This document shows, piece after piece, positions 12,120 through 49,820 of a stretch of DNA of 64,000 bases (positions are counted from its first letter, which is position 1; the number at the start of each line of letters is the position of its first letter). The notes beneath the pieces are model-generated. The model was not told the origin of the DNA, searched no databases, and saw nothing but the letters and a program-made list of their open reading frames with translations. The position numbers were made by a program, and so were the translations under genes. Source of the DNA: Siphonodentalium dalli (Eukaryota; Mollusca; Scaphopoda; Gadilida; Siphonodentaliidae). The stretch is taken from contig CP136066.1 of assembly GCA_032622095.1 (NCBI GenBank), forward strand, positions 103,375,319 through 103,439,318, written 5' to 3'.

Positions 12120-12961
12120 CCCAGATAGCAATAATATGTTGGCCCAACGTTGGCCCAACCGTTGGCTAAACGTTGGGCCAACGTTGGGTCATACGGTTGG
12201 GCCAACGTAATTTTGCTCGTAGGCCCTACGTTGGGCCAACGTGTTGGGCCTACGTTGGGCCAACGTTGGCAAATCATAAGTTACGTTGGGCCAACGTTGG
12301 CCCACCTATTTTTTATGGTGGCCCCACGTTGGGCCAACGCGTTGGGCCTACGTTGGGCCAACGTTGGCAAATCACAAGTTACGTTGGGCCAACGTTGGCC
12401 CAACCTATTTTTTATGGTTGGCCCTACGTTGGGCCAACGTGTTGGGCCTACGTTGGGCCAACGTTGGCAAATCATAAGTTACGTTGGGCCAACGTTGGGC
12501 CAACCGTTGGCTAAACGTTGGGCCAACCGTTGGCTAAACGTTGGGCCAACGTTGGGTCATACGGTTGGGCCAACGTAATTTTGCTCGTAGGCCCTACGTT
12601 GGGCCAACGTGTTGGGCCTACGTTGGGCCAACGTTGGCAAATCATAAGTTACGTTGGGCCAACGTTGGGTCAACCTATTTTTTATGGTTGGCCCTACGTT
12701 GGGCCAACGTGTTGGGCCTACGCTGGGCCAATGTTGGCAAATCATAAGTTACGTTGGGCCAACGTTGGGCCAACGTTAGGCCAACCTATTTTTCATGGTT
12801 GGGCCTACATTGGTCCAACATGTGTGGCCTACTTTGGGCCAACGTTGGCAAATCATAAGTTACGTTGGACCAATGTTAGCCCAACGTTGGACCAATGTTT
12901 AGGCTAGCCAACATTGGACCAACGGTTGGAGCAACGGATCAACATATTATTGCTATCTGGG
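12120..12961. mobile_element. 842-bp miniature element with CCAACGTTGG array (left end of the insert)
   Basis: Perfect inverted repeats CCCAGATAGCAATAATATG at 12120 and its complement ending at 12961, with AA on both sides (12118-12119 and 12962-12963). Between the ends is an array built from GTTGGGCCAACG-like modules with a higher-order period of about 120 bp, and a ~360-bp internal duplication (CCGTTGGCTAAACG near 12163 and 12525). Long frames on both strands are by-products of the stop-free repeat. It has no transposase, so it is non-autonomous. Confidence 0.85.
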
Positions 12962-12992
12962 AATGGAAACATAACCAGAGTTACACATTTAA

Positions 12993-13252
12993 CCCTTTGA
13001 TGACAGGAGCTTCCTGACATTTTGCGAAAAAACCCTGTGCTTGGTGCCAATGCATTCTCTTATATATGCTAGTCACCCATAGGGCGCCTCAAGTATATAC
13101 GAGAATGTATTGGCCTAACAATATTTACCTTCATCTTGTAAGCTAGTGCATTCTCTTCTGCATGAGAGGCTATGGGAGACTCGATTACATAAGAGAATGC
13201 ACTGGCACAGGGTCTTTAATGTTGCACAAGCACAGCTCCCATCATAGAAGGG
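12993..13252. mobile_element. TTAA-flanked miniature element with ATTCTCTTATATATG stems, copy 1
   Basis: TTAA at 12989-12992 and 13253-13256. The ends match imperfectly (CCCTTTGATGACAGGAGC against the complement CCCTTCTATGATGGGAGC). The interior holds inverted copies of GCATTCTCTTATATATGC. The CCCTT end plus TTAA target resembles the piggyBac element of this window but is a different family. Confidence 0.85.
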
Positions 13253-14308
13253 TTAACACTTTTCTGACAAGCATATACTTCATACACATTCATTTGTATG
13301 GATGTTGAGATGATAAATTCAAAAGCCTAAGGCTGTTCGTTGAGCTTATTATCTGAACATCACTATAAATGAATGGGAATTCTTGGATAATTCTCAGTGC
13401 TGTTTTCTCTGCCGGCTGTCTGCTTAAATTTTTGGAACATCCCTGCAAATGAAGATACACTTTTAGAACTGAATTGGGAAATTGCTTTCAGTTATGAATG
13501 GGTTAAATTGAAAACTAATATCTTTGAAGTCATAGCAACAAGTGTCATATGCAACTACATCAGTAATAAATCATTAACACTGGAGATCTCTACCTATATA
13601 ATTTTCTTTCTTCAGTAATGACTTCACATTTGTAGTCAACAAATATTGTGAACTCCCAAAGAATTTCTGGAGAAAATCAGATGAAATTTGTTGAATTGTT
13701 TTATTCCTTAACACTTAATATTATAATAATTATAATCTTATTCAACAATTATAACAATATATAACAACTTTATTTTAATTTAAAATAAGTCAATAAATAA
13801 ATCATTTTAATAATTTGGGAAAAATCCTTAATATTATAAGGACTATGGTCATGGAATCTCAAATTTCCTATAAAAAAACGTAAATAATAAACAACATTTA
13901 GATGTATCCAAGTGTGACTACCTGCTAAACAAGCTAGATAAAACATCATAATTAATACTTGTGACACCAGCAACTACCAACGTGTCCCAATTTTATGACT
14001 GAAATTTCAATGTAAACATATGTATCACAAATTGGCCCAATAAAACATCTTATGGATATCTTACAACCAGACCAGGTGGCAGGCAGATCACAACACAGGG
14101 ATAAATCTTTATTAGATTAGTATGTCTGTCTGGAACAGGCAACCGACCACCCCACTGATTTGATTAAGTGACTAGGGAAGCATACATGTCTACTGGAAGT
14201 GATCTCTTCACTACAATATGACACACACTTGTGATGATGGCCCTCTGACTGGGCTGACTCATTTCAATCACTGTTGACACATGAAAATTGAGATTCCATA
14301 GTCCTTAA
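13253..14308. other. No gene recognised
   Basis: AT-rich sequence with short open frames that have no recognisable similarity. Nothing beyond low-complexity stretches near 13720-13810. Confidence 0.5.
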
Positions 14309-22081: not shown

Positions 22082-25000
22082 TCATAATTTACCATTTACT
22101 CCCACCAGAACCTTTTCGCAAGCTGCAATTCCATTTTTATGGTCTCCCATCCCAGCCCAATTCAGTTTCTTGGCCAATTCATGGCTCACCAGCGCAGCCA
22201 TGATGTTTCTGACCACCGCTTCATCGTTCCGCCCACCGAGAACACTAAGTTGCACTATCTGAAATAATTCAAAAAGTGAAAAAATAATTAAGAATTTGTA
22301 AATGCTGCAAAGGGGGGGGGGAGGATGGGTGGTGTCATTGAACATTCTGACAAGAAGGCTCTAAAGATGGGCAGTACTCGGTATTTACCGTGCGGTATCG
22401 GTATCAGCTTAATACCGATTTACCGAACCGAATAAAAACTAAAAATACCGTATTTTCGGTCATGAAATTATTATGTGTTGCCAACGTATATGCGTGACCT
22501 TGTCACCGCGGCCATGCTATGCATGAATTGTATGACCGGTCAACCGTAAGCAACGAGAATCGGATAATTATGATAACTCAATGTAACAAGTCGGTACTAC
22601 ATGTATTAGTCTATTACAATGTTGTTACATCAAGGGCGCAGCTGCCCGAGGGCATCTTTGATCTTTACGACATATTCAATACCGCCCATCTCTAGAAGGC
22701 TCTTTTTTATCACTTTCAGGACACACCACCCTAGTTTTCTATTATTATAATAGTCTGGTATCATTTTAATACCAGTGTGAATTTTACACAAGCAAGTACA
22801 GTTTAAATGTTCTGCCTCCAGTAAGAAACAACGAGAGGTGGGCAACATATCCCATGTTTATGTCGAGAGTATGGCCCTGTGAATCGGAAATTTGGCAACC
22901 GAAACAAATCTTGAATTGAATCGGGGGTCCGATGTCGACATTGATATCGATTGGGACAAGCACTGGTCAAATAAAAATCATAGCTGAAAATTGGATAACC
23001 TTCTCATTATTGTTCTTAAAAGTTGAGATTTGTTTTAATATGAAAACAAATAACCAACCCAGAATTCAAACATTCTGCCGCTGACATCAACTCAACTTTA
23101 ATATTTTGAACGAAAATCAAAATTAGATATCACTTAATAGTAGAATAACATGTGATTTTCACGTCATGACTGGACGCCGACTATAATATGAATAACAAGC
23201 AGACGCAGATGGCGGTATCCCCCGTCGAAATGTGCAGTTGGGGAAGTGCATTATCAATAATGTTTGCGTTCTCTGTGTGTGCTAAAAAGAGGTGGGATTG
23301 TTGTATTTGGCTATGAAACTCTATCGAGGTAGGGAGTCAATGAGTGTATATAAGTCCATTGTGGGAACAAACGCACAATATATATATAAACATCGGAAAT
23401 AGGCCGATTGTGCCTCCAGTTATCGGAAATCGGTCCGATGGACTTTTTCATTATCGAAACATCACTAGTTAGATACATTAGAAACATTATAATGATTAGA
23501 GCATGTATTTAATATAGCATTGCAGAATTAAAAAGCCAAACTCACCAGGCCTTGTCCCAGTTCAGCATCCTCTCCCAGTCGTTTCTCTAATTCACAGAGA
23601 TCTTCATATGCCTTGACTGGGAGAGGAACTTTTTTGCTGTTATCTACATGTGTCTGTGAAGTTGTTGCTGTCGCATGGCGTTTCTGGCGTTGAAGAAGGA
23701 AGTCAAGTTTCATTGTATTGGCTGTGACCTCCTCCTTCAATTCCACGAGCAGAGTTAAGACTCTTCTTTCAAAAGCTGGAAATAGAATTTTAAAACAATG
23801 CAATGAGATTGGAAGAAAGTATTCTGCAATTAACTACTTTGTTTGTTGGCCGAACACCAAACAGGCCACATAGATCAAACAGACTGCAACTGTTACAAAC
23901 AAAAGTTTTAATGTGAAAATGAATATTATCAGGTGACATATCGGCAAATAGAGCCTTAACTCTCAGTATAATTAACATATAAATCCGAATCAAACATTAA
24001 CTCTTCCATGTGAAAAAAAACGAGGTGAAAGCGAAAATTACATATATGACTTTCTGTTTTAAAATGGCATTCTTGACTCAATTGTTTCTATTTGTAAAAA
24101 TTACTAAGTTGGGATGTTATATATCATTGGAGAGGTTTGGTTTTGTTTCTTCGACCTAACCCAAAATTTTGACACTGTAGCTTAATTATTTTGTCAAAAA
24201 GTTACAGTAAAGGGGCTTGTTTTGTGTAGATGAAACTAGAGGTGTGACGACTGTGTGTTATAGTGTTAGTTATAGCCATTCTGGATCATTTATATACAAA
24301 CAGCCCAAAGTGTGACACAGGCATGGCATGTGCCGGTTATTATTAACACAGTGACCAGTATGGAATATTCCACACAGAGCTATCACAACAATGACAGGCA
24401 GACATATGTACTTTTAAAGCCCTGACTGTCATCTCTGATTATTTCTTGTAAATGTCAGAACCAACTGATTTACTCTTTATTTATTACCTATCAGATATAT
24501 ATTATATATTAGAGTACAGTGAATGATTATTTAGTGATCTGAAAATCACCACTTTAATCATTTATTTATTTTGGCTCTATAGTATATAAAGTAGTCAACA
24601 TACCTGTAACTGACACTTTACTGGTAGGTGCCACAACTGGCACACATGGAGGTGGGGCCAAGACTTTTGGTATAGTTAGAATATTCTTTCTACGTTTTGG
24701 AGTAGGTACATCTACAATAAGGATCAGTCTTTTTAGAAATAAGAAATTGGTATTATAAGATATAATAAAAGGCCGTCCGGCCACAGTATCCCCCGAAAAA
24801 GTGGCTTCATTGGGGGCATCAGCTTTTCTGAAAAAACTAACGAGGACCCTAAATCTGATACTAAATTTCAGAACAATCCAACCAGTGTCCCCTGAAATGG
24901 TGGATAAACTATCATACCAAATTTGATTCAGATACGATCACACAAACTAAAGTTGCATCCGGAAACCAGAAATTAACAGGATTCTAAGTCGAAAAAGGGC

Positions 25001-28000
25001 CATAACTCTCTCAAAAATGGGCGGAGCAAACCCATATTCGAACGTGACCTGTATATAGGGCTGATAAACTCACATACCAAATTTGGTTCAGATATGATCG
25101 CACAAACTGAAGTTATCATCCAGAAACCAGAAAGCTGTTGCAGCTTTATTTGGCCGTTTTGGCCGGTTTGTTGGGTAAAGGGTTAAGTAACGAAAGTCGG
25201 CATTATGTCATACGTAATTAGCTCGATCGGCAAAAAATATTGGGTCGATAGAAAATTGATTGCAGTTAATTTCGGATGAATTACGGACAGTTACTGTTTT
25301 GGGGAATAAATATACATGTTGGTGGATGAACTACATCTATCCGTATCAATAACATTCCCATTGGAAACAGACAGTACTGTGAAATCGCTGCAAGTTCTTC
25401 GTAATAACATATATTAAGAACATAATAGACCGATTGTTCTAAGGTTTCTGTTCATTCCAATCCATGCTTTGTCATGCAGAACCGCAGCTGACATTGAATT
25501 TTATTCATATATAATGTGAATTGGATATCTTAAGTTCTAAACATAAGGTAATCAATTGAGTTCTGCATCTAGGGATCATGCACTGTGTAGAAAATTTATA
25601 TAGTGTGATACAGATTTCATATATATGTGGCGAATGATCACCATCACTGGTTGCGATCAAAGCACATAATTTGCATAATGCACGTCTATTCGGAATGGCA
25701 TACATAACATTACATACTATTATGGCTAACTTGTCAAACTTGTGCTTCAATTTTTGTGATTTCAGGTCATTCAGCGGACCGATTCGGTGTCGATCTCGAA
25801 TTGGTGCCCGATATCGACATCGAATCGAATCTCGAATATTCACAGGTCCAAATGAACATGCATGCACGTCATGAAAGGGTTAATTGGCTAATGTTTCCAT
25901 CGTACACAAACACTGCTATAGCTAACACAAATATAGACTCACAGTCATCTGATTCTTCCTCACTTGAAGTTAAACTTTCACTTGTTGTCACATACTTTTT
26001 GTTCACCTGTAAATATTGATGTTAGATTTATGGAATGACCAGTCTATTCGGTAACTGGAGAAGGCCCCATACGAAGACGGCCCCTCGTGAAAATGGCCCC
26101 AGAGAAATCGGCCCCCATGCAGTTATGTCCCTGGTCCCACCCTATTTAACCTGGTAACCCCATCTGAATAAATTTGAATCCCAGACACCAAAGAACCCTT
26201 CATACTAAATATCAGTAAAATAGACCTGATGGTCCTTGTGAAGGAAGCATATTAATAATTATTATGAAGGGAAACAGTCTTTCGCTTGGCCCTTACTTGA
26301 CCTGGTGACCCAATTTTAACAAATCTGAATTCCAGTCAATCAAGAACATTCCATGCTAGATAAGCCATTTGTACCTTTATACCAAATGTGAACCCATTGG
26401 CCCGATGGAATTTGAGAAGAAGTCGTTTTAAGACTTACTATGGTGGGAAAGAGTTATGGACCTAGCTTCGCAACTATTTGACCGAGTGACCTCATTTGAA
26501 CAAATCTGAATGTGAATCACCCAGGGAACATCCACACCAATTATGAACTCAATCGTTCCAAAGGATCTAGAGAAGATGTTCAAAGAATTGTTGATGGATG
26601 GACGGACAGACGACGGATGAGGAGTGATGACTATAGCTCCACCAGAGACTTCGTCTCAGGTGAGCTAAAAACAGGAGTTGTGCATCAAAGATGGCTGTTA
26701 TTGAGTTTTTTTTTTGCCCATAAGAGTTAATTTGTTCAACCGAGAAACACTACAAGTTGTCACATTAAAGGTACTCAATCCGATCAGAGGGTCCTATATT
26801 ACTATTCGAGTCGAGGAACCTACCAATCAACGCTCAGGGTGATCAGATATCGATATTTGAATTTTCGTTATTTCTATTCATTCTGGCCCAGAACACAGTC
26901 AAAATTGCGTTATTATTACCACTTGATTATAGAGTTATCCATCCTTGTCTGTTTGAATAGTGTTTTGGTGTACACATCTCAAGCAGATTATAAAGTTAAG
27001 GGCAATTATTAGTACTCATCTCGAGAAAATAACAAATTTAAAAAATCAATATCTTATAACTCTGAGCTTTGTTTGATGGGTTCCTCGACTCGAATAAAAT
27101 ATTGTTTACCCCCCAAAGCCAAAGAATTAGTAAAATAGGACCCTCTGATCGGATTGTTGTTGTTGTAATCTGTTGAGATGAGGACCCTCTGATCGGATTG
27201 AGTACCTCTAACTGTCATAAAAGGATAACAATAGACAAACTAAGGTTTGTAAAGCAGGTGAAAAAAACCAAACCTGGTTTTCAAACTTAATCAAGAAATT
27301 GTTATGAAAGAATTATAACAGATAAAACACTTGTTATTTTATCATATTATTAAATACCGTTTTCTTTCGTTTCAGTGGCAGCTCATTGTCTGTTTTTAAA
27401 TCAGTAGTCTTCAAAGCTAGCTTCGCTTTACTTTGCGCTTTCATATAAGTAACTGTAAAAATAATTGTTTTAAAGTAAATTGCGATGTTTTCACTGTTTC
27501 AAAATTGCTAAAATGTCAGAAAATTATAAAACATGTTGAGCCTTCTCTATGTTAAAACAAGAGCATCGCTAGGTGCTTCCAACTGTCTATTTTAACTATT
27601 TATCAATCACTCAATGACGGACACAAAATTCATCTGATGTATTTTCAACTTATAAGTTGTCACACAAAATTAACAGGTTCCCTGGTTCCCCAGAACAAAA
27701 GTTGACCTTTGTTGGACTAAGTATTATTTGGAGTGGGGTAAATTTTTGTTCTGCAGTAAAAATTCATTGGACGTAGCCCAGATTCATACTGGGCCCAGAT
27801 TCACAAGTTATTTTCATGAGACTAATCCACATACAAAATTTGAAAACAGTCAGATATATAAAACTAAAGCCTATTACATATACTGTTGACCATCTGGACA
27901 CTTTGAAAACTAAACACTGATATCAATAATTATCTAACAGTACTTATTTCATTTTTCAAAAATGAGTTCAGTATAACCAGGGTTTCCGCTATACCGACAG

Positions 28001-32935: not shown

Positions 32936-33018
32936 GTTTCAGTTTTATCTTATATATATTTTATATCCCCTGTATATATGTTAAATTTGTAAGTTTGGCA
33001 TATATTTGAATACTCAAA

Positions 33019-33352: not shown

Positions 33353-34158
33353 CTCTTGGGCTCCAATAAAACATGCATGCACGTTTATTATTTTCTTGGG
33401 TAATTTCCCCCTGCACAGTGCTTATTTGGGTCTGCACTTTTGAAATGAAAATTGAAATCAACACAAGATTTCTATATGATTCCGATATCAAAATGTTGAG
33501 CTTACCGGTATAACTTTATGCATGTACATGTATATGGCATACATGGGAACATTTAAATATTGAATAAAACACCACATGACACATACCATCTTAATTCCTA
33601 TAATTGACATACTATAGTACAATACAAATACTTTGTTTAACCCTTTACCCAACAGAAGGGCCCTGTGCCAATGCATTCTCTTATATATGCGAGTCGACCA
33701 TAGGTCGCCTCACATATATAAGAGAATGCATTGGCTTAACACATTAAAAATTATAATATTGTTAAAGAATGTAAGAAAAAATGGTAAAAAGTGTTAATTT
33801 TTTTTTTTTAGGCCAATGCATTCTCTTATATATGCGAGGCGACCTATGGTCGAGTCGCATATATAAGAGAATGCATTGGCCTAGGGCATAACTATAACCA
33901 TCACAATGTGGTCAATGAGCCGGTTCCAATGATATCCATATGTGTATGGTTTTATTGAGACAGACCCAAGATATTTTAGGCTGTTGAAGCTTTATTTGGC
34001 CGGTTTGTTGGGTAAAGGGTTAACCACAGTTAAAATGTTGATGTTTTGCTCAGAGTTCACCCTGCACTATTATTTGGGTCTGCATGTTTATTAAGTTCCA
34101 ATGGAATTTACCCACTGCACTATTATTTGGGCCTGCACTTTTATTTGGAGCCCAAGAG
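33353..34158. mobile_element. TA-flanked miniature element CTCTTGGGCTCCAA, copy 1 (carries a nested insertion)
   Basis: TA at 33351-33352 and 34159-34160, with ends CTCTTGGGCTCCAATAAAA and its complement. Repeated TTATTTGGGTCTGCAC motifs line both arms. It is split at a TTAA by another element (33641-34019); the copy at 36771-37320 has the uninterrupted sequence (TATGTTTAACAG) at that point. Confidence 0.88.
33641..34019. mobile_element. TTAA-flanked element CCCTTTACCCAAC with nested palindromes
   Basis: TTAA at 33637-33640 and 34020-34023, with perfect 13-bp ends CCCTTTACCCAAC. It contains two 67-bp hairpins (33668-33734 and 33813-33879), each folding on CCAATGCATTCTC and TTATATATG stems. 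The second is the reverse complement of the first, apart from one or two bases. Confidence 0.92.
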
Positions 34159-35370: not shown

Positions 35371-36770
35371 TATCAGTCCGGCAGGTCGCAATAAGTCAAC
35401 CGGCAGGATGCCTCATGCAAGCATCATTTTATTGAGATTTTTATCAACAAAACAGAAAAACCGCCTCTGTAACTTTTATGCGAACTTGACAAATGAAACA
35501 AGTTTCGTCATTGGATACAAATTAACCACAATCAGACTGCCGGATTATCATGACACGATGGACGGAAATAATGCCACTTTAGTAATATTTAGTTAAATCT
35601 ACGTATGTCCAGACTCGGGTTAAGTATATCATGGATCAAATTGTTAATTTTCTCTCAAAATTGGATATGTTTATGCAGTGTGGTTCCAGCATATTTACTG
35701 TTAATTGGAATCAGGCGTGCCGCGTACAGCTCTATAACAGACATAATCAGTTGTACAAAAAGGAGGGGAGGGTTATAGGTTCACGCAAGGCTGTATACAG
35801 TATACTAGTAATGTATATCACTAATGCTATCAGTATCATAAGTTACACATAACCAGATATCCCATCAATGCCAATAATAAACTTTCCTGTCTGACAAAAA
35901 AAAGAAGTTCCCAAGTATTTTCTATAATTAATTGAGTAGAGATTCAATCATTCATGGAAGGCCTAATTAAGTAATTAAATTATTAATTCATTTGAAAAAT
36001 ATTATGATTATTATGATTAATATAATCGCAAGTGTAGAAGTAAAAAAGGTAATTAAGCAGCTGTAAGTGTATGTCTGGAAATGTCTGTCTTCGACTTGGA
36101 AAATTCAATTGACATTATCAATAATAATTCAATGCCGGAAGTTGGCGAACTACATAAGTAAACAGACTGAAACTGAAAGTTGAAAGGCCAACTGAATTTA
36201 ATTTTTCAATTTAATTTTAAATTTAATGAAACTGAAAGTCTACAGATACACAAATCACAACACAGTCAATATTTTACACATTGACTCGGGACAATCGGAG
36301 TCGGGTACGCCCGTACTCGCCACTGGTCAGTATATTACATTGGCACTGCATTCTATAATTACTCACGTAGAAGTTGGAGTACGTTAAATTAACGCCATTC
36401 GCCCATTGATTGGGATTGGCCATATATTCAGTAAATCAATATTCTGTATCAGTGTATCATGCACTGACACTGTGACTGTCACTGCATGTGGACTGTGGTT
36501 GCCATACATTATGATACAATATTATATTAGTACACAAAGTGACAAACCTACAAGTTAGTACAAACCAAAAAAGTTGAAAGACGAAACGACTCTAATTTAT
36601 AGAAATTCGCCAGGCATTATTCAGAGAATATACTCAGTACCTTACTGGCTACTGCACTCTGACTATATAGTGTGAGTGAGAGTGAGTGCAGTGGGAATCG
36701 TCTATATATTAGATCTATATATAAACTCTAAACTTATAAAGCCTAACGTCAGTACTCTTGCCGTCTTGCC
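35371..36770. other. No gene recognised
   Basis: Two short plus-strand frames (35408-35596, 35631-35852) resemble nothing I recognise and are within chance length for this composition. AT-rich otherwise. Confidence 0.45.
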
Positions 36771-37320
36771 TCTCTTGGGCTCCAATTTTTTGAGTCCAAA
36801 TAAACATGCATGCACGTTTATTATTTTCTTGGGAAATTTCCCCCCTGCATAGTGCTTATTTGGGTCTGCACGTTTATTAATTTTCAGGCTATGAAAATTG
36901 AAATCAGCACAAACTCAAGATTTATATGTGAATTATGACTCCGATACCAAAATGATGAGTTTATAGTATTCTTTATGCATGTATATGACACACATGTGAA
37001 CATTTAAATACTGAATAAAACACCACATATGTCGATATGACATAACACATACTGTCAATGTCATTACTGATTACTATACTAATAACTACTAAGTACTATA
37101 AGTATAACTATGTTGATTACTATACTTGACCTACAGGCTACTGGAACTGTAAAAATAATATGTTTAACAGTTGATGTTTTGCTCAGAGTTTCTCCTGCAC
37201 TATTATTTGGGTCTGCACTTTTATTAACATTCAATGAAATTTCCCTCCTGCACTATTAGTATTAGTATTATTGCAATATTGTTGGGGTCTGCACTTTTAA
37301 GTTTTATTTGGAGCCCGAGA
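36771..37320. mobile_element. Miniature element CTCTTGGGCTCC, copy 2
   Basis: Ends TCTCTTGGGCTCC and GGAGCCCGAGA. Internal motifs are shared with 33353-34158 (ACATGCATGCACGTTTATTA, GTTGATGTTTTGCTCAGAG). It lacks the nested TTAA insertion. The flanking dinucleotides are no longer TA. Confidence 0.8.
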
Positions 37321-39170
37321 CTGGCGAGAGTAACGACTAACGTGACCAGAAGAAAAAAAACCCAACTCAGTCACAAGTTATCACTGTTGAATTAAAAATA
37401 ATCTGCCGATATTAAAGTTGCATTCTCAATTTATACACAATAAATGGTGTTAACGCAACAAACCTCAAGAGTGTGGCAGTGGCTTCTTCGACTTTTTATC
37501 GTCTGAAAAAATCACCAGCTTCCGCTACGTCATCACGTAAATCACGTTCACGAGTTTCGACCGCACGTTATTTCGGGCACCTGTTATATCCGCACGTTAT
37601 TTTCGGGCACCTGTTGCATCCACAAGCTTCCGCAGCGTCTCTCGCCGAAAACTGATTCTGGTAGAGATTAAATCCACCATTGTAACTAAACAAAATTACG
37701 TACACTATCGATGGGGATTAAATATTATAGAAGATCACATAATTGAGAACATGAGAACATTGTTAATTAATGTACGTACGTTAGTGCCATATATAAATAG
37801 ATGTATATATTATACGTATACGTACTTGCATCAATGATTGTTGATCGTTCATATATGTGATCTTCCAGACGAGTCCACTGATGTATTATCGCATTGCTGT
37901 ATGTCTATATATCGATTTATTTTAAAATAACGTTTTATTACTATTATATCAATATAATTAAGTATCAATTTTGTTTAACAAAATATAACAATCACATTTG
38001 CCTGGCCTATAACTGATCTGCGACCAGCAAGAGGTGGTGGGATTTTCCCACTGACAACAACGCCGTCTGCCGGAATTTTTTCAAAATTGTAGGTTAACTT
38101 GAAATTATGTCACACGTAAATATCGGTTTTTCATAAGTAACGAGGACATTTAAAGACTGCACGCAATTGCTGACAACAAGTATCCGAACCGCAACATATA
38201 CTCGTGTATACGTACACCTATAGTGGCTATACTGATAATTTAATTTTCCATTTTTCACAATTTGACTTTCAAAATTCATGCAATGTCAATTGTCGTACAG
38301 ACAGTCACTTTCCCAGTTCGGGATAACTGATCGCATTCTCTCTGCACAAACAGATCTCGGTTGATTTGCATGGACATACAATGTTCCAAGACATAAGAAA
38401 TCATATACTCTACAGTATTTTAAATTATTTTCCGATCGAGCTTTGACGAAAAAAAAAGTATTTGGTTCTGAAATGACCCTATCCATTTTTCCCAGTTCTG
38501 GATTTTTTTGTTGCCGGTTCGGGATAACTGAATATTTGACATACATGTATCTGTTATCTTATCTGTTATTTTTTGTGTATTAAAGTTTGATTTTATGTGA
38601 TTATATGCTAATTCCTTTCAACAGAATACATATTTGAGCTAATAAAACTGTTTAATGAGTGCGTGATAGCCTTTTGAAAATGACTTGATATCATGTTTTA
38701 TTCAGTTCAGGATTTTTTTTTAAACCTGCAGTATTTGCTTAATTCCAATGGTTACCTCATGTTTCTTCATGTGATTCTAAAAGACTAAAAGTAAAACATT
38801 TACTCACCATCACCATTATTAAAACAAATATAAAGATTAAATTTAATATACAAAATAATTGATGGTTAAACTATGACTGGGGTCAGCCTACCCAAAGTTG
38901 TCGATCCTGCTATAGTATTTATGTGATTGTACATAAGCATTGGTATAGTGTTACTTTAGAGAAGAATAGAATTTAATACTTTTATCGAATGTGTTGCGGA
39001 TGGCGCAAGGATATATTTCGCGAGAGCGTAGCTCGATAAAAGGTTCAAGATTATGATGCAAGTTGTGTTCTGTATTTATTGAAATTATTCTACACCGTTC
39101 AGTCACATAAGTGCAATCCATGAATGTCACCTTAATTGTTACTATACTAGTAGCTACCTTTATTGTTATT
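37321..39170. other. No gene recognised
   Basis: A locally GC-rich patch (37470-37650) contains two copies of CGGGCACCTGTT with CGCACGTTATTT. Further on, CCAGTTCGGGATAACTGA-like phrases occur near 38311 and 38513. No convincing coding frame. Confidence 0.45.
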
Positions 39171-39171
39171 T

Positions 39172-39236
39172 GAGATTTAGTCGGAAATATGGCTTTCCGA
39201 TGAATGGCAACAAGCCATATTTCCGACTAAATCCTG
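39172..39236. repeat. Hairpin with a 22-bp perfect stem (GATTTAGTCGGAAATATGGC)
   Basis: GATTTAGTCGGAAATATGGC near 39175 is followed after a short loop by its complement, and AGTTATCCATAATTCTGCTG continues outward. One arm with the same flank is found inverted near 48840-48892, so the hairpin belongs to a dispersed family. Confidence 0.75.
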
Positions 39237-39823
39237 AAAAGTTATCCATAATTCTGCTGTGGTTAAGGAGTCGATTAATTAGAGCATTACTGTATGGTTT
39301 ACTTATTGACATAAATCAGGGGAAAAACCCTATTTTCATATTATCAGCATCCCTGTCCAAAAAATGGTGTGTAATTACTGGAGCTTTGGGGTCTCAGTCC
39401 TGGAGCTCTAGTTTTTCTTATTAAATCAGCATCTCTTGCACAAATCTATAGTATTTCCATGATCATATAGTGTGAATGTGGTGTCACCGAGGGCTTTCTT
39501 CCCTCATATGGTGTGCCTGTATACTCGAAAATTGAAGGAAATCAATGTCCCTCCGACTAATACAGAAAGTAATGCTAATGCAAGTAGCCCCAGCTAATAT
39601 ACACCGAATATAATATAATGCTATCACGAGTCGCTCCAACTAAAACAGAAGGTGATACTATTGCAAGTCAGCCATTTTGATAAAGAAGTTGGGCTAGCTC
39701 CCTACCCAATGTACCCATCCAAACCAATGAAAGCACGAGGTGATATGACAAAAGGAGTTAATGCTAAGTTATCGAGAAACCTATTTATTCACCAGGGGTG
39801 TTTTGTTACATATAACCATGAAT

Positions 39824-39905
39824 TGTGCTTAAGCGCAATTGATTGCACTTAAGCGAAAAAAATTACACTTAAGCGCAATTAATTGCCCTTAAGCACAATT
39901 AATGA
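39824..39905. repeat. Palindromic tandem CTTAAGCGCAATT repeat
   Basis: Four CTTAAGC cores spaced about 20 bp, alternating with GCAATTAATTGC-type palindromes. Each CTTAAG is itself palindromic. Function unknown. Confidence 0.75.
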
Positions 39906-40019
39906 TTAAATGTGAATTTGGCCTCCCATATGGATGAAATTCAATTTATCATATAATTTGGCCATAAAAGCAGTTTCATAATTATCGATAATAGACACGT
40001 TTAATATCAGCGCGCGCGA

Positions 40020-40027
40020 TGACGTCA
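40020..40027. promoter_or_regulatory. CRE-like site TGACGTCA
   Basis: A perfect 8-bp cAMP-response-element palindrome next to a CGCGCGCG run, 383 bp upstream of the TatD-type ATG. A promoter role is only a possibility; a match of this length arises by chance. Confidence 0.3.
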
Positions 40028-40107
40028 CAGCGTTTTTCAAATAACTTGCGATCGTTGTAGTTTATGATTGTTGTTTTCGATGAATATTTCGCGTTGCTTC
40101 GGGTTTA

Positions 40108-40277
40108 TTTGATCATGTGATAAAAGGTATCTCACACTCGTCCTATGTTATACGTAATTTATCAACCTCGTCCTCTAAATTCTATTTGAGCCTCGGTAAA
40201 CCTCGGCTCAAATCGAATTTAGTGAACTCGGTTGATAAATTCCGTATAAAATAGAAACTCATGTGAGATCCTCTATT
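40108..40277. repeat. Foldback element upstream of the TatD-type gene
   Basis: GTATCTCACACTCG near 40128 pairs with CATGTGAGATCC near 40260. Inside, ACGTAATTTATCAACCTCG pairs with GAACTCGGTTGATAAATTCCGT, and GCCTCGGTAAACCTCGGC forms the loop stem. About 150 bp folds almost completely. Confidence 0.75.
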
Positions 40278-40409
40278 TACACCCCAACAACACCATTCTA
40301 TTTAGCTCTGTTTGAACAGTTGGGTCCACATAAAGTCCCAAAAAATAAACTAATTCTATTCTAAACACTCTTTTATTTATTTTTTCCAGGTAAATTATAT
40401 TGTGAGGAA

Positions 40410-41294
40410 ATGGCCAATAGTGCCATAGAAATGGAATGGCCGCAAGTAGCTTCAGGCATATGCCCAGATTTTTTGTTTTGTGAATGTAATAAGCGCAGGT
40501 GCAATTTAAAGGAACCATTGTTCGATTCTCATTGTCACCTGGACTTATTACATCACCACCATCACACAGAATTGTCAGATATTTTGTTGCCTAGGAATTT
40601 TGGGGGATGCATTACAAACTTTTCTCATCCCTGGTTTCATCGCATGGTACCTAAAATTCTTATGCAACAGAATGTCTTGCCGGTCTGGGGTTCAGTTGGC
40701 ATTCACCCCAAGTTTGCCAGTTTTTATAACCAGCGGCGCTACACTGACAGAATGGTAAATTATCTTTACCGTCCTGACATTGTTGCTGTTGGGGAGACAG
40801 GTATTGACCGTTTCCATCTGCAGACGAATCCCCCTCTGAATATTCAGAAGGAATCATTTCGTTTTCACTGCAGATTAGCGGTAAACCACTGCCTCCCAAT
40901 TGTTGTACATTGCAGGAAGGCTGAGAAAGATACTCTTTCTGTAATGAAAGAGTGTCTTCCTCAGAATTTCAATATTCATTTACATTGTTTTACTGGGGAA
41001 TGGGAATTTGCGCAGCAGTTTCTAAATTATTTCCACAATCTTTATATTGGTGTAGCTGGCAAGACTGACCTTGCTCCGGTGAAGTCAGTTATTGCTAATA
41101 CACCAATAGAAAGATTAGTTATAGAAACTGATGCGCCATTCCTTGTCCCTCCAAAGGCAAAAGGTAAGTATTCACACACCCATCCTGGTCTGGTTCTGTA
41201 CCAGGCTAAGGCAGTGGCTGACATGAAATCAATGTCAGTCGATGAGGTGTGTCGCCATACAATAGTTAATGCAAAGACACTATATGGTTTGTGA
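40410..41294 (+). CDS. TatD-family metal-dependent DNase, 294 codons
   Basis: TatD proteins are TIM-barrel, divalent-metal-dependent deoxyribonucleases. All recognisable metal ligands and signature motifs are present: FDSHCHLD (H41, H43), GSVGIHP (94-100), AVGETGID (E129), VVHCR (H167), LHCFTG (H192) and ETDAPFL (D241). The C-terminal helix block DEVCRHTIVNAKTLYGL is typical. A short cysteine-containing leader (CPDFLFCECNKRRC) precedes the barrel, more like animal TATDN2-type proteins than bacterial TatD. The ATG at 40410 is the first in the exon, but the frame stays open upstream through a strong acceptor (TTTATTTATTTTTTCCAG, ending 40389). The true protein may therefore have 5' exons that I could not find. 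It is intronless after the ATG and reads as intact. Which biological process it serves here is not visible. Confidence 0.9.
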   Translation: MANSAIEMEWPQVASGICPDFLFCECNKRRCNLKEPLFDSHCHLDLLHHHHHTELSDILLPRNFGGCITNFSHPWFHRMVPKILMQQNVLPVWGSVGIHPKFASFYNQRRYTDRMVNYLYRPDIVAVGETGIDRFHLQTNPPLNIQKESFRFHCRLAVNHCLPIVVHCRKAEKDTLSVMKECLPQNFNIHLHCFTGEWEFAQQFLNYFHNLYIGVAGKTDLAPVKSVIANTPIERLVIETDAPFLVPPKAKGKYSHTHPGLVLYQAKAVADMKSMSVDEVCRHTIVNAKTLYGL

Positions 41295-42363
41295 GCAAAT
41301 ATCTTGTTTCACCAAATATTTATATATTGTATATATATTAATCTATTGTTTCACCAAACACAATTAGGGAATAAGCGGTTTTGTGAAGTCAGACATCTAT
41401 GTTTGTATATAGTTTTTTACAGCAAGTTTTAGCTTAACTTGATGAAGTCAATTTTGAGCTATTTCCATTGGTTGGTCTTGGTGTCTATCATTTGTGCGTC
41501 CGCCAACAAATTCCTTTAGCACAACCTCACATCCATCATCTGATTATCACTAAACTTCATGTGGATCTTCACGTGACAACTTGAAGGGAACAAATTTCGT
41601 TAAAGACATATGTACTTGTTCGGGTGTGTGAAACTGATAAGTTAGTGTTCAGGTGTTATGCCAACTGGAGGAATTTAGCATTCTACTAACATCACCGAAA
41701 ATCTCAAGCAGATCGACTGTACCACTGCATAGAAAACATTGTCTGAACTACGCTAAATTGTAAATATTTAGTACTCAAATCGGGACGCCTCTATCGGCGA
41801 TAAACTAACGAAAACGATTTCACCATCGACAGTCACTGCATTTAATTAATATATTAGAATGACGGTGTGAGTTGTCAATTTAGATATAATAATTGTAAAA
41901 ATAGCTACTTTGAACAAGATTATTCTCCATTTATATTTGATCACCCAAACCGGTGTGTTTCACATCACTTTAAAAAACTTGGCCACTAGCGGTGACGTTG
42001 GATTTCACATTTGAATCCATTGGCATACCCTGCAGCCGACATTTATTGGAGATATGTTTTGAAAATTTACAGGCATGTTCAGGATCGCTTCTAGATGGGA
42101 GCTATCAAATTTGAATGATATTCGATTTAAAACATTGTTGCCGAAGCCATCTTTGATTTTATTCTGCATCACTAAGTACTTTGTCATACGGTATCCTACA
42201 TCAAACATTTCTTATTCATTTGATACCAAGCTTCATATGGCTCTTCGAGTTGACCTCAGGTATTACTGAAACATGTAAATTTGCTGCAGTCCCAAATGCT
42301 TTATTGACTAATGTATGACAGTATCCTTTCTCCAAGTTGAACTATGGTGTTTCGGCACTTTAA
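41295..42363. other. No gene; dispersed repeat fragment
   Basis: TTTTAGCTTAACTTGATGAAGTCAATTTTGAGC near 41427 starts a repeat also seen near 45947 (TTTAGCTCAACTTGACCAAGTC), followed by a GTGTCTRTC / CGTCCGCCA-type stretch. The rest has no recognisable feature. Confidence 0.5.
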
Positions 42364-42799
42364 AGATGCATAATCCGAATTAACGCTCCCAAATTACTAT
42401 CTCTGATTTCGGGGGTAAAAAATATCTGACTCGAGTCGATTAACCCACCATATGATCAGTTTAGAAGTTTTTTAAATTTGTTATTTTTCGAGATGTCTAC
42501 TTATTTGTGGCCCAGAAAAAACTCGTCAAACTGATGGTCTTGGACAAATTGCGGATGAAGATGGAAAACCTTCAAATTAAGGGGTAATGTGGCCAAATGT
42601 TGGGATACTCAAGTGATAATACGGCCATATTTCGTTGAACATCATGTTGATAAATAACACGTTTTGTGAAATTTTATACCATTGTTGACAGTGGTTAGCA
42701 TTATTTTGTTGTAGTTAATCGATTCTGATAACTAAAGCATATTTTGAAGAAATGTTGTAACTGTATGATATGGGGACCGTCTGATCGGATTGAGTACCT
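42364..42799. mobile_element. TTAA-flanked miniature element AGGTACTCAATCC, copy 3 (older)
   Basis: TTAA at 42360-42363 and 42800-42803. The right end GATCGGATTGAGTACCT is intact; the left end is diverged (AGATGCATAATCCG). Internal GGGGGTAAAAAATATCTGA matches the other copies. Confidence 0.8.
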
Positions 42800-42860
42800 T
42801 TAAATTATTTGCTATTGGCATTCGATATCAATTGAATACCATGGATTATGAGATTATTTA

Positions 42861-43052
42861 CTCTCAGGTACCTTAATAATAATAGTGATTACCTGATAAT
42901 AGTGATTACCTGATAATAGTGATAGGTGAGATTGTTGACTGAAATTAATAATTGCAATGTCCCTGTTTCATTACCAAATATTAATGATGGCTGATATTTT
43001 TGGTTGAAATTAATAATTGTATCAACACTTTTATTATATAGGCACCTGAGAA
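42861..43052. mobile_element. TA-flanked miniature element CTCTYAGGTGCC, copy 2
   Basis: TA at 42859-42860 and 43053-43054. Ends CTCTCAGGTACC and GGCACCTGAGAA. Contains three tandem GATTACCTGATAATAGT units, paralleling those in copy 1 at 15015-15208. Confidence 0.85.
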
Positions 43053-45944
43053 TATGCAGGATGGCTGTTAACAAGAGAATAGTTTCATCATATTTAAATA
43101 TATGTTTATAGCTTTAGTATGTAGTGACTAGCAATCTTGTTTTAAGGAGCAATGCATCAGTTTCGGTAATAGATGTATCATATAGAATTATGATACTTGA
43201 GATTTCATCATGCAAGCAGACATGAGTTACATGACAAAATATTTTTATTATGCAAGCAGACAGAGGTTAGGAATAATTGTAAATCAAGTCTTAACACAAA
43301 GTGTGGTTGCTGTGGAAGGGGACTCTGATCATAAATAAAACTCTAAAAGACTATGATGTCCATTCTGAGATTATCTGAGTACATGTAACCTGACTGAGAA
43401 CAAGCATGTATTAAAGTGCCTGGTATGTTGGAAACAGTTGACTTTGGTAGATGGTTGCCATTGAAGTCCATGTACTGCAAATCAAGCAGCAACACAGCCA
43501 GTATGAGACATCTTCATCGTGACATAACTGGTGAGTTGTGCATCGATGTCGAGTGAGCTGGCAGTGTGATTATGTTTTATTGAAAGCATTGGTACATATT
43601 AAATGCATGTAGTTGCAGAAATGTGTCAGGTTTTTTGTCTTCAGAATTTTTACGCAACAAAATTATCAGTAAAAATGGGATGGCACACCAATGGCAAGTG
43701 TTGGCATTGTCTGGTGTTATTGTTGTCTGAATGAATATGATAATTGTCAAAATATCTTTGAAGTGACATATTGTTTTGACTTCATTTATAATTAGACCCT
43801 GATCCTTTATAGACTATGAAAGGACCTGTAAAGTCAGTGATAATTTTGATGACATTATTTCTGCTTTCATTTTGTTAATAACATTAAATATTAAACAGTG
43901 GGTAAGTGTGAATCAGCACATAAATTTCTGTCAGTTGCTACTTAGCTGCTGACACTTTTTTATTCTAACTTAAATTGTGGATATTAATAATGATTCTAAG
44001 ACTTAGTTCTACACGGCTCAGATATACAGTACGTCACTGCAATTTTGCCTCTTTTATATTCAAATTAAGTTTAGATTATGGCAAATACAGGGCATAGCCA
44101 TCTTTTCATTTATAAAGAAAGGACTAGTAACAACGGGAAAATATCCCTATTCACCAATTCATTTGTTTATAAAGCCTGATTATAAATGGTTGTTCATTGT
44201 CTAAATGACAAAACAATTCAATTAACAGCAGCACAAATTGATTGGAAGACATTTGTATTATGAATCTTTTAAAAAAATCATCTTAAAACTGTGTGCTGTT
44301 TTGGCTGGTGCCAATAACAAAAATCACAATCAGGTTTATTATTCATTTGTCTGATTGGTGACAGAGTGAATATAGTATTGTTACTATTGTCAGGAATTTA
44401 TTTTACAAAAGGAGGAGCGGTAACAACCAGTGTATCACTTGTGGGCCAAGATAATGTGTGGAAAACAATAGTTGTGCAAAGTTTAATTTCTACTTTTCGA
44501 AACAAATGCAACTCCTTTTTTATTTCTTATGTAAATTATCCAAAGTTGATCTCCAGGATTCAGCCATCCTGCAATCTGGTCATATGTCTGGAGCACATGT
44601 AATATTAACATAATGATAGTCTGTTCGCCTGTCAGTCCTGAACAATTATAAATGCAATCATAGTTGATCGGCGGATTATTTGGATTATATGGTACAGTCA
44701 TTAATTGCAGACCATTAATTTAGAGAATGAATACAATTTTTAAAAGAGTAAAGTAACTTTCTTTTTCTTTCATTGATAGTGCTTTTTTGGTCAATTACAA
44801 TCTTCTAAGGGTATGCCTGTTTATGATGGCATGAGCAGACTAGGACTCTTGATGTGTTATATTATACTAAACATATCAATGCATGCAGACCATGAAAGGT
44901 GGATTAATTTTTGGTATTTTATGTCACTTATAATGTGGAAGATATAATCTCAACCTCAAAAACATATTAAACAATGAGCATTGGCTCAGAATTTATTTGA
45001 CATAAACAATTATAGTGTTGACAATTTGACATGACACATTATATCAGATGTCATCAAGAAATTATGACACTAGTCTACATCACATCAATAGTTTAGGATC
45101 TGACTGTGCAGTGCCACAATGAAGTACATGTACCTGTATTTGTTTGTATGTGACTTTATATACTGACACATTTTTGTTGAACATGAGGATGTCAGCTACA
45201 GTAAGCAAATAGCCGTCAAGCTTTACTCAGTACCCTGGCTTGAACAATGGCTTGATTATTCAATCATTGTGGTCAATTTATGAATCAGTTAAATTGAATT
45301 AAATCAAGTTGTTTTCTGGGGTTCCAAATACTTGTTTCATTATGTGTAATTTGTTGTTCTAGATGAACGATATGTAAAAATGTTATCGATTTTTATGAGG
45401 AAGTCGATTAAGAAGATACAATAATATAGGGAAACGTTTTATAGAAAAAAACATATTTGCCACCTGGTAAATTTGTTTAATAATTAAAAGAGAAACATAT
45501 GTATACTGCTCCATATGTGTTTTCTTTGTTGGAAAGTTAAACAAATAGACATAAATTTTAATTGTGAATTTTCTTAATATTTAAAACCATTCAGAGATAT
45601 ACTAGTATATACTTCAACTTGCAGGGGATACAATGGTCCTCTGTCCAATCGTCCATTAGTCAGTCCATCCATCTGTCTGTCAATTCACACATATACTATG
45701 TATCTCAGAAATGATATACCCCATCAGAGTGGCGTTCAAAGAAGGGTCCATTGATGTTATTCACATCCCCCCTTGGGTTTTCCATCTTTGTTTATGTGCA
45801 GAATGTCATGTTGGGGGTATATACCAGACAGTAGATCAATTGTTGTTAATTCAGGCTTACCGTGACTAAAACGGATCTTGTAAGATGTATATATGTACAG
45901 ATTATTGAAATTCTATTTAAAATTCTCAGTTGTGTTGAACTGTT
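43053..45944. other. No gene recognised
   Basis: AT-rich DNA with no recognisable gene. From about 45630 it carries a diverged dispersed repeat (CAGTCCATCCATCTGTCTGTC; TTCAAAGAAGGGTCCATTGATGTTATTCACAT) that recurs in tandem at 48240-48560. Confidence 0.5.
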
Positions 45945-46060: not shown

Positions 46061-46077
46061 AACATGGCTGACAGCAG

Positions 46078-46215: not shown

Positions 46216-48215
46216 ATTTTACTAAAATATCCATATGGATGGCTATTGGATACTCAGTCTCATACTGTGGAGTGTGCAAAGATACAAACAACATATATAT
46301 CAGAAAGTTAGTTCAATTTTCATGTGTTATGTTAGTGGTACAGTGTGTATGAACATTCTGGCATTGGACACAGATAACAACACACAAAGGTTGAATACAG
46401 CATGAATGGCAATAAACTTGTGATACAGACAATTAAATGTTCTAATATGAAAAAAATAGGCTAGCGGACTTCAATTAGGATTAAATTGAATTGGGACTGC
46501 AAGCTGCAGACAATGGCTTTAGAGTCACACTGGTACAATAGGGCTAATTAACTGAACAAAGCAGGTATGATGTACATTGGTAGACCTAATTAGCTGGTTT
46601 GTCATTTACTGCACTCATAGAGTTAAGCCTAATTTAATCCTCATTAGGATTAACAACGGATGATTATAAAATAAATCTTAGTGTTATCTTCATTGTGTTG
46701 GGTAATGAATCTAACAGAACATGAAAATAATTTATAATTGTTTCTGGTGATATTTTCATAAATATTATGTGCTAGTTTGAATGCACGTAAGAAAATTAAA
46801 AATATATTAAAATATATTTACATAAATAAATACACATTATGACATAAAACATAATGTATTCCCAATAAGTTGGTGCATAACTTCATGATGAAACCTTTCC
46901 AATACATGTAAATGTAAAAAGTTAATATGTTTATTGCTTGCTTCTTTCTATTGTTTCAGTCTTTTCTTGTTTCCATGTTATGTGGTGATGTCTTTATTCG
47001 ATCAAATTTGATATGTTAATTTGAATTATCACCGCAGCCATCTTGGATTTAAAATATGAATCTCATCAGCACACCATGCAGTTCACTTTTATTGGAGTAT
47101 TGATTGAAAATGTACAGGTGTGTTTACTAACTTTACTATTGTTTAGGAGCCATAAAATGTCCCAAATTGATTGTATGTATTATTTGAAATAAAATCAATA
47201 TTAATTGATAGAAGACGGGTCATTGATACATTTTTATTATTTTATACCCATCGAACTATATTATTATAGTAAGGGGTAGATCATCTTTAATAATAACCTC
47301 ATTTGACAGTTAATTTTGTAAATAAAAAACGTGACACCAAATAGATCTGGTTAATAACACTGGCCTAAAATGTGTGGATTGCATATAACCCAACAGCAAT
47401 CTCCAGACATTTTTACAAGCAAGGATATTTCAAATATATTTGGACTAATCTTGCATGATAAATACTGGTATGTTACAGTTATACATGTACACATACCATA
47501 TATATTTCAATCAGTGCGATCCAACTCTACTGGTAAGTGAAGTCTTATGAATTCATGCAGTTGCTCAATATTGAAATATTTTTTTCATCATTTTAGAACC
47601 ATAACATTGTCTTCAATGATGTATCGATACTGTTAAAATGATCTATTTGTGTTATCCCTTAATATAGGGCTTTAAAATTGACATTCCAGTGAAATTAACA
47701 GAAATGATTGCCATTCTGAAGTTGGCTGCAAAAATCAATGCCACTTTCTAATGCTCAATATGCAGAATAATTTGTAAGTTTAGAATTATATGTTGCAATT
47801 TGAAATGCTGTCCCAAATATTATATATTAATATTACAGTTTTAACATTCGTTCAACATTTGGCCAACATTAGGCCAATGTTGACATGCCAATTTTGGGCC
47901 AACATTTTACGCTTCAACTGCTGAAGCCATTTTCACTATAACACTGTAATGCATGTGAGATGAAATACACTCAACTTGAGTCTGACTTTATACACAAATA
48001 ATTCCATCTCTAACTGTCTTTGCATTGAGTTTGCAACTCTAAACATTGGTGTTAAATGTCGATAATGGATTTATCACATGCATTAATTAAGTTACACAAT
48101 CTTCACTTTATTAAATATGGTTCTGTAATTCCACTGATTAAAAGCACAATTAGATAAGAAAATATCTTTACAGGTTTATTCGGGTTTTAATAATAATTGT
48201 TATATCCCAGAAGAT
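46216..48215. other. No gene; small trace of CCAAC-type repeat
   Basis: AT-rich. Near 47848-47912, TTGGCCAACATTAGGCCAATGTTG and TTGGGCCAACATT look like a decayed remnant of the array motif at the insert's ends. Confidence 0.45.
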
Positions 48216-48660
48216 GGGGGGGGGGGTATACTGGATTACATGCATCCTCCATCCATCCGTCTGCTCATATATCTCAACCATGGGTTATCAGATGGATGAT
48301 CAATGAAATTTGGTATGCAGGTTTGTCATCAGAAGAAAGGTTTTCAAAATAGGGTTCATTGAGGTTGTTCACATTTTCTGCTTAAGTGTTATCCCTCTTT
48401 GTTTTTCTGAAAATGTTGGATTTCTGTCCATCCACTCGTATTTCTCAACTATGGGTTATCAGATCTTGATGAAATTTGGTATGCAGGTTTGGCATCAGGA
48501 GTGCTTTCAAAAGAGGATTCATTGACGTCATTCACATTTTCCGTTCAAGAGTTATTATGCCTTTTTTATCTGAAAATGTTAGATTTCCATTCGTCATTTG
48601 TTAAAATTTTCACAATTTGGTTTCCGACAAGCCCATGTTTCAATTTTCACCATGGGGGGT
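48216..48660 (+). repeat. ~155-bp tandem repeat of a dispersed element
   Basis: TATYTCAACYATGGGTTATCAGAT...ATGAAATTTGGTATGCAGGTTTG occurs twice (about 48267 and 48438), with matching tails TTCATTGA(G/C)GT(T/C)(G/A)TTCACATTTTC. Related to the segment at 45690-45770. Confidence 0.7.
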
Positions 48661-49374
48661 ATCCCAGCACCCGTGGTGCAACCTCTTGTTTAATTTGAAT
48701 TAATATAGAGATATAACTTTATATTTCATGCGGAGATGAGAATTTGTACAGGGTAATTTTACCCGGGGAGTATTAATAGATAGGCTGCGTTGATCTCATA
48801 TGTCTTAAAGTTACAGTAATGCCCTAAGTAATCGACCACAGCAGAATTATGGGTAACTTTTCAGGATTTAGTCGGAAATATGGCTTTTTGCCATTCAGCG
48901 GAAAGCTCTCGGGTTAAAAGGGCACTAATATTTCATTTAAAAATATTTTGGCTATAGATGACCAAACGGCTGGACTCCAGGGGGGTCAATTCACCCAGGG
49001 AGTGTCATGGGATAGGTGTCGTTGATGCATCATATGTCTTAAAATGGCACTAATAATTAATTTAACTAAATAATTCATTATATACCAAAAATGGTTGGAA
49101 TCAGGTCTTGGAAAATTGATTAACAAGGGAAAATTTGATGTGAGGAGTGTCATGGTATAATTGTTGTTGGCCTCATTGACTCAAGGGGGCACTAATAAAC
49201 AATTTTGTTTAAAAATTAATTATATACCCAAAATCAGGTTGGACCCTGGTGATGAGTTGCATTAATAAAGGTATTATCTCTTGATTTTCCTAATAAATCA
49301 ACTGAAATAGATATTCTCAATTTATTTGCAAAATTAAAAATACACTGTTGAAATTTCAATTAGGTAGGTTGATA
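48661..49374. other. No gene; one arm of the GATTTAGTCGGAAATATGGC family
   Basis: The segment 48830-48892 matches the outer and stem sequence of the hairpin at 39172. Several imperfect phrases (GGCACTAATAA, GTGTCATGG(G/T)ATA) recur through 48930-49200, suggesting an old degenerate repeat. Confidence 0.5.
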
Positions 49375-49820
49375 GGTTGGGCCAACGGTTGGCTAAGTGT
49401 TGGCTTGCCAACGTTGGCCCAACGTTGGCTTAATGTTGGCTTGCCAACGGTTGGCTAAGCGTTGGCCTGCCATCGTTGGCCCAACGTTGGATTGCCAACG
49501 TTGGCCCAACGTTGGCTTAACGTTGGCATGGCCAACGGTTGGCATTGATACGTTGGGCCAACGTTGGCTTGCCAACGGTTGGCTAAGCGTTGGCTTGCCA
49601 ACCGTTGGCATTGATGCGTTGGGCCAACGTTGGCTTGCCAACGGTTGGTTAAGCGTTGGCTTGCCAACGTTGGCCCAACGTTGGTTTAACGTTGGCTTGC
49701 CAACGGTTGGCAATAATACGTTGGGCCAACGTTGGGCCAACGTATTTTTTGCCAACCGTTGGCAAGCCAACGGTTGTAACGTTGGGCCAACGTTGGCCCA
49801 ACGTATCATTGCTATCTGGG
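49375..49820. mobile_element. CCAACGTTGG array with one terminal repeat (right end of the insert)
   Basis: About 446 bp of GTTGGCTTGCCAACG, GTTGGCCCAACGTTGG and GGTTGGCTAAGCG modules, ending in the complement of CCCAGATAGCAATGATACG at 49820. Unlike the left array (12120-12961) there is no second inverted repeat at its inner edge, and the module vocabulary differs. It is a related but different family member whose inner end is lost or never existed. Long frames in it are repeat artefacts. Confidence 0.85.

Follow-up and report, generated by a model that had tools for sequence, protein, structure and literature searches.

Could a segment of almost 38 kb, lying inside a single unit of a satellite repeat, have arrived there in one piece, and if so, what kind of element was it? 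The question is raised by a stretch of 64,000 nucleotides of the Siphonodentalium dalli genome (hereafter the window; C6:103375319-103439318 of the host assembly, where C6 is the contig), in which one unit of a ~1.64-kb satellite is divided by an insert of 37,701 bp at 12120-49820. Most cut-and-paste elements of eukaryotes measure a few kb. Based on the empty sites in the satellite, on further copies in the genome and on the transposase gene that it carries, we consider the insert, with a probability of roughly 0.87, to belong to a family of giant cut-and-paste transposons of the CMC (EnSpm/CACTA-Mirage-Chapaev) type that is present in multiple copies.

The satellite units are 1,623-1,642 bp long (unit 3, as the initial annotation had stated, is 1,633 bp), and the array is interrupted twice in the window, by a piggyBac-type element at 3215-9079 and by the segment 12120-49820. 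At the latter, the satellite ends at GTACAA (12119) and picks up again at AATTGAGG (49821), exactly where the splitting insertion had first been placed. The target site is intact in all 11 of its other occurrences in the window, nine of which read GTACAATTGAGG and two GTGCAATTGAGG. A single AA is present at these empty sites, and AA stands on both sides of the filled one. Since the 11 other sites are uninterrupted and the filled site reads GTACAA / AATTGAGG, the AA that had been noticed beside each end is a 2-bp target-site duplication. The proposal that the satellite provides a clean empty-site reference is supported, as is the suggestion that the whole 37.7 kb moved in a single cut-and-paste event. 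The features concerned are:

12120..49820, no strand: giant transposon, 37,701 bp (empty-site comparison at 11 sites; three other copies in the genome)
12118..12119, no strand: left target-site duplication, AA (lone AA in empty sites)
49821..49822, no strand: right target-site duplication, AA (empty-site comparison)
49821..64000, no strand: satellite array, units of 1,623-1,642 bp (unit comparison)

The two ends of the insert had been described as a 23-bp inverted repeat with two mismatches, which is correct, and the match runs further, to about 40 bp (37 of 40 bases). Inside the left end the repeat is present once more, in inverse orientation. Here the left and right repeats are denoted L and R, and the internal copy M:

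12120..12159, plus strand: left terminal inverted repeat (L), ~40 bp (37/40 against the right end)
49781..49820, minus strand: right terminal inverted repeat (R), ~40 bp (37/40 against the left end)
12940..12961, minus strand: inner terminal-repeat copy in inverse orientation (M); AATG comes next in each of the four copies read
12138..12936, no strand: left subterminal palindromic array, 14 CCAACGTTGG (motif count)
49375..49804, no strand: right subterminal palindromic array, 11 CCAACGTTGG (motif count)

The 13-mer core of the repeat occurs three times in the window, where 0.0016 occurrences are expected. Because M matches L inversely (identical over 22 bp), the first 842 bp (12120-12961) resemble a small element on their own, and their self-complementarity score is 439, whereas 30 block-shuffled controls average 141 and reach at most 184. 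The motif CCAACGTTGG, which may resemble a BEN-type palindrome, is found 14 times in 12120-12961 and 11 times in 49375-49820, with no occurrence in the 36.4-kb interior of the insert or in the satellite at 49821-64000. The right module is without an inner repeat, so that a module of the L-M type is present at the left end only, and the outermost bases of the element are CCC..GGG. Searches with the terminal-repeat pattern in viral contigs and genome contigs gave no match, nor did a search with the left module in phages, and among the part of the literature matches to the repeat letters that was viewed there was no title on a transposon.

Then, does the same element occur elsewhere? One pattern search and two protein searches were run on the host assembly (2,226,750,531 bases, or 2.23 Gb, in nine contigs). 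Exact matches to the 22-base terminal pattern number 39, many of them without an exact partner; its reversed control has none. Three additional copies of the element, numbered 2 to 4, were recognized on two contigs, none of them gap-free. Copy 2 (31.9 kb; C6:138844358-138876291, opposite orientation, flanks TA/TA) and copy 3 (~38.9 kb; C6, ~127921185 to 127960110, flanks AT/AT, with the left repeat partly deleted) could be traced to both ends, each with its own 2-bp duplication. The former matches the window in parts of 12417-26199 and of 48382-49564, lacks the 22 kb between them and holds an extra segment of 14.2 kb; the latter matches parts of 12533-22714 and 43379-49643, its middle being occupied by other mobile DNA. 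A long terminal repeat (LTR)-type element with pol-like and envelope-like frames was observed there. Copy 4, on C5 with its left end at 178646104, is colinear with the window, with gaps, as far as 35752; it was read to 178691903 and the right end was not met by there. The substitution distances of the three copies from the window are 0.0215, 0.0173 and 0.0207, that is, about 2% (blocks of at least 500 bp and at least 90% identity, ends excluded). Jointly they cover 28,455 of the 37,701 bases of the insert (blocks of at least 300 bp and at least 88% identity), with one long gap:

35753..43378, no strand: stretch uncovered by copies 2-4 (block comparison)

Within this gap, 40796-42784 recurs at C1:182.81 Mb with 96-97% identity, to the end of the stretch compared there.

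Shorter family members were found as inward-facing pairs of the pattern, namely 23,368 bp on C1 (flanks CA/CA), 16,185 bp on C2 (AC/AC), 9,899 bp and 15,722 bp on C2 (both AT/AT; given the common flanks, probably one duplicated locus) and 14,576 bp on C3 (GA/GA). In total, eight of the nine two-ended elements have a 2-bp target duplication, a count from which two 549-bp modules at C6:138.88 Mb (flanks TT/TA) were excluded; one of these is the L-M module of copy 2 and the other that of an adjacent tandem duplicate. The duplication itself was seen at C6:138875743-138882148, where the L-M module recurs 5.86 kb further on with identical flanks. The 23.4-kb C1 member also has an internal terminal-repeat copy, ~4.6 kb from its L-type end. 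The search for other loci with the same ends, which the initial annotation had proposed, has therefore yielded copies of 31.9 kb and ~38.9 kb as well as members of 9.9-23.4 kb. The size that had been called exceptional is indeed large (37.7 kb), but it is not a singular accident, as it recurs within the family. Since there are three further copies, ~2% diverged, two of which have duplications of their own, the insert is a multi-copy giant transposon rather than a one-off composite or a mis-join. As judged from sequence comparison, the moving unit spans L to R and duplicated 2 bp, and other such units lie elsewhere in the genome.

The insert encodes a transposase, a spliced DUF4806-like protein and a TatD-type nuclease:

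30878..32938, minus strand: CMC/EnSpm-type transposase, 686 codons plus stop, ATG as second codon (open frame)
30881-31291, minus strand: predicted C-terminal BAH-like fold of the transposase (segment of matching length in 21/21 aligned proteins)
28468..28661, minus strand: DUF4806-like, 5'-most exon found, with in-frame TGA at 28562-28564 (same stretch open in copy 4)
27355..27450, minus strand: DUF4806-like, approximate second exon (97% amino-acid identity in copy 4)
23546..23775, minus strand: DUF4806-like, third exon found (91% amino-acid identity in copies 2 and 4)
22106..22258, minus strand: DUF4806-like, fourth exon found (present in copies 2, 3 and 4)
40365..41294, plus strand: TatD-type nuclease frame, in-frame ATG at 40410 (five sought motifs present; paired with the transposase at 4/11 loci)

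The transposase has tnp2/DUF4218 homology and a DDE triad with C(2)C and H(3-4)H between the second D and E; the set D206, D284, C303xxC306, H499xxxH503 and E523 is invariant in 21 of 21 aligned proteins. Structure prediction suggests a RAG1/Transib-like core at residues ~114-560, with 8-12% identity in the structural alignments, and a BAH-like domain at the C-terminus, over residues ~558-680; Pfam BAH gave no match at E <= 1 in the 21 proteins, and the BAH fold comes solely from structure comparison. In copy 4 the transposase stands at the same place and is 94% identical over residues 1-606, and a CMC transposase remnant is present in another element bounded by these ends. Another transposase fragment (60%) was observed at C5:178723230-178723922, at a distance of ~77 kb from the copy 4 left end. 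With the transposase as query, viral contigs gave 5 and 18 stretches and genome contigs gave 31, none of them confirmed, and plasmids gave no match.

For the DUF4806-like gene, the profile match is 24.8 bits against a cut-off of 25, and none of the 456 candidates in the protein search reached E <= 0.001. The window copy is interrupted by an in-frame stop, whereas copy 4 holds all four exons with the first one open. Copy 2 has exons 3-4 and is without exons 1-2; because the gene straddles the left breakpoint of the part absent from copy 2, a loss from that copy is more likely than a gain in the window.

The TatD frame scores 167.6 bits in Pfam, with the metal-binding His, Glu and Asp motifs. 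TatD-like matches number at least 133 in the host assembly, many of them 29-37% identical and inside long frames. Frames of ~1,000-1,200 amino acids, some with identical scores and lengths across contigs, look like another TatD-carrying mobile family. The two closest near-full-length relatives and one partial relative of the TatD gene adjoin close relatives of the transposase: at C1:9.27 Mb (TatD 57%, transposase 59%, 6.6 kb apart), at C1:56.55 Mb (58% and 63%; 4.3 kb to the N-terminal piece and 5.0 kb to the piece used in the pair count) and at C1:200.97 Mb (52% and 59%, 4.4 kb). The orientation is divergent at all four loci, with a spacing of 7.4 kb in the window. In a scripted count on the best 11 of 63 transposase matches and 15 of the at least 133 TatD matches, a divergent TatD within 7.5 kb was found at 4 of the 11 transposase loci, the window included, versus 0.0015 pairs expected by chance; hence TatD, on sequence grounds, probably belongs to the element.

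How could such an element move? We infer that catalysis is by the CMC transposase, given its predicted fold, its intact residues, its position in copy 4 and the second CMC remnant with the same ends. The RAG1/Transib-like DDE enzyme, if the structure prediction holds, would cut at the two outer ~40-bp repeats and join them to a target staggered by 2 bp, with the subterminal palindromic arrays as likely docking sites at which the two far-apart ends are paired. TNPA binds the subterminal repeats of plant En/Spm, and by analogy the DUF4806-like protein would probably bind the arrays here; DUF4806 is stated to be a BEN subtype in PMC11075544. The BAH-like tail may read chromatin and help to pick targets, which would suit the landing in a satellite, and trimming or repair of the DNA ends left by excision may be the task of the TatD nuclease. 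In the window copy, the transposase and TatD frames are open and the DUF4806-like gene carries a stop, so this copy may need the protein from another one. As a tentative proposal, which we hold somewhat less probable than its negation, the family could be a new giant animal CMC lineage with a conserved three-gene kit, comprising a RAG1-fold/BAH transposase, a BEN-like DUF4806 protein that gathers the ends through the subterminal palindromes and an end-processing divergent TatD exonuclease, which would let cut-and-paste keep moving 30-40-kb units and aim at heterochromatin.

Several observations weigh against these readings. The termini are CCC..GGG, not the 5'-CA..TG-3' usual in the CMC/CMCT clade, and whereas EnSpm duplicates 3 bp, the duplication here is 2 bp (in the window, CAA precedes and AAT follows the insert). 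The 697-bp member on C2 has flanks TT/AA and no duplication. The transposase is present in only two of the four copies, that of copy 4 being broken by a frameshift and two stops, and neither a transposase nor a TatD match was obtained in copies 2 and 3. The two transposase copies differ by 4 synonymous and 22 non-synonymous changes over 673 codons, with no sign of purifying selection. Seven of the 11 best transposase matches have no TatD inside 10 kb, and neither do three further matches (C4:212.94, C7:159.4 and C5:178.72 Mb; at least 52% identity), which lay outside the script and were checked against the TatD match table, so that the pairing is 4 of 14 over all matches of at least 52% identity. 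TatD fragments at C1:182.81 Mb (97-98%) and C6:152.06 Mb (81-87%) have no listed transposase nearby. Finally, array binding and chromatin targeting are putative roles of the accessory proteins and the transposase tail.

Could TatD, then, be recent host cargo instead of an element gene? The gene lies in the region uncovered by copies 2-4, TatD-like domains abound in the genome, and most close transposase loci are without one. However, the divergent pairs at three other loci (4.3-6.6 kb) exceed chance expectation by far, and a TatD fragment recurs together with its downstream DNA at C1:182.81 Mb. We therefore regard host cargo as unlikely. That genes were carried in the moved segment, as originally suggested, stands; they need not be passive cargo, since the transposase and the DUF4806-like gene are colinear in copy 4 and TatD lies beside related transposases.

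It is also rather improbable that all three genes belong to a different CMC transposon nested in an element whose CCCAGATAGC ends were moved by another enzyme. Such nesting would account for the absence of the transposase from copies 2 and 3 and for the atypical termini, and the interior does contain nested elements. Yet a limited scan of the 40 best terminal pairs around the transposase returned mainly pairs resembling dispersed miniature elements and no convincing CMC pair; the transposase is at the same place in copy 4; the DUF4806-like gene spans the copy 2 breakpoint, where loss is likelier than gain here; and the CMC remnant occurs between the same ends in another element.

A one-off macrotransposition, in which the 842-bp element and the end at 49820 flanked 36 kb of host DNA and were moved by a transposase from elsewhere, is very improbable. 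In its favour, M repeats L inversely without a mismatch over 22 bp and is followed by AA, the module is strongly self-complementary, and en-bloc movement between nearby copies has been proposed for P elements (PMC1562414). But the module and AATG recur in copies 2, 3 and 4 despite different outer flanks, and the interior is common to other copies; this explanation was rejected unless the four are segmental duplicates, against which the differing outer flanks argue. The module was also considered as an independent miniature inverted-repeat transposable element (MITE) and rejected, having no target duplication of its own: the AATG after M is constant in four copies while the outer flank varies (AA, TA, AT, TT), so that the module belongs to the element rather than being a MITE that moved by itself. 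An assembly mis-join of satellite to unrelated DNA has a negligible chance, for although satellites are hard to assemble, the junctions fall exactly at the inverted-repeat ends, a perfect empty site is rebuilt with the 2-bp duplication and the element is also present at other places, between different flanks.

Besides the giant CMC-type transposon itself, smaller elements were observed in the window. The piggyBac-type element in the satellite (5,865 bp, TTAA flanks, CCCTTTGAACCC ends) has its transposase divided between two overlapping frames near 6740. Inside the insert there are another TTAA-flanked miniature element (19216-19571) in addition to the one listed below, dispersed and probably related miniature elements (26769-27207, 14305-14721 and 42358-42803), a 240-bp tandem duplication (28921-29409, 97%) and a 79-bp tandem array (34509-35077). 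Ten other interior open reading frames matched no Pfam family above cut-off, and Rfam and tRNA scans of the window gave no matches.

33641..34019, no strand: nested TTAA-flanked miniature element (missing at the same place in copy 4)

A multi-copy family of 32-39 kb, with an empty-site satellite and ~2% divergence, offers a way to study how a DDE transposase brings such distant ends into synapsis, and the RAG1-like predicted fold together with a BAH-like chromatin-reader fold bears on target choice by such enzymes. A firm link of TatD and DUF4806 to CMC transposases, if true, would help to explain widespread, poorly understood animal gene families. No description of either as a transposon gene was found in the literature within the scope of the search, which most subscription journals and Repbase Reports fell outside, and this absence is a weak argument because of that limited scope.

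Among known systems, Teratorn is likewise a giant animal DNA transposon with internal terminal repeats, but it is a piggyBac-herpesvirus fusion of 41-182 kb (PMC6431247), and no gene of that type was seen among the scanned frames of the insert. Like the insert, the composite-like KolobokP transposons enclose a transposase and a nuclease between terminal modules that themselves have short inverted repeats; in contrast, two long direct terminal repeats are present there, against a module at the left only here, and the nuclease is of the His-Me finger instead of the TatD type (PMC9587614). The Kolobok target duplication is TTAA; the insert has AA, and its right module has no inner repeat. RAG1/Transib is similar in predicted fold over residues ~114-560 and differs by its 5-bp target duplication and by the 8-12% structural-alignment identity. 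Subterminal repeat arrays are typical of CACTA elements and are present here. With EnSpm/CACTA and the CMC/CMCT clade (EnSpm, Mirage, Chapaev, Transib, Plavaka), the insert shares the C(2)C/H(3-4)H DDE transposase, DUF4218/tnp2, the arrays and a short duplication, its 2 bp lying within the 2-5 bp of the clade. The family is set apart by CCC..GGG in place of the 5'-CAC..GTG-3' of EnSpm/CACTA proper, by 2-bp duplications, by the internal inverse terminal repeat and by the TatD partner. As given in PMC12730594, CA..TG termini hold in most, not all, cases of the clade, and EnSpm duplicates 3 bp. Red-algal EnSpm elements of 16-20 kb have been called significantly enlarged (PMC6431247), compared with 31.9-38.9 kb for the present family. 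Two features of EnSpm proper aside, the insert behaves like an EnSpm/CACTA element with an enzyme of the CMC clade.

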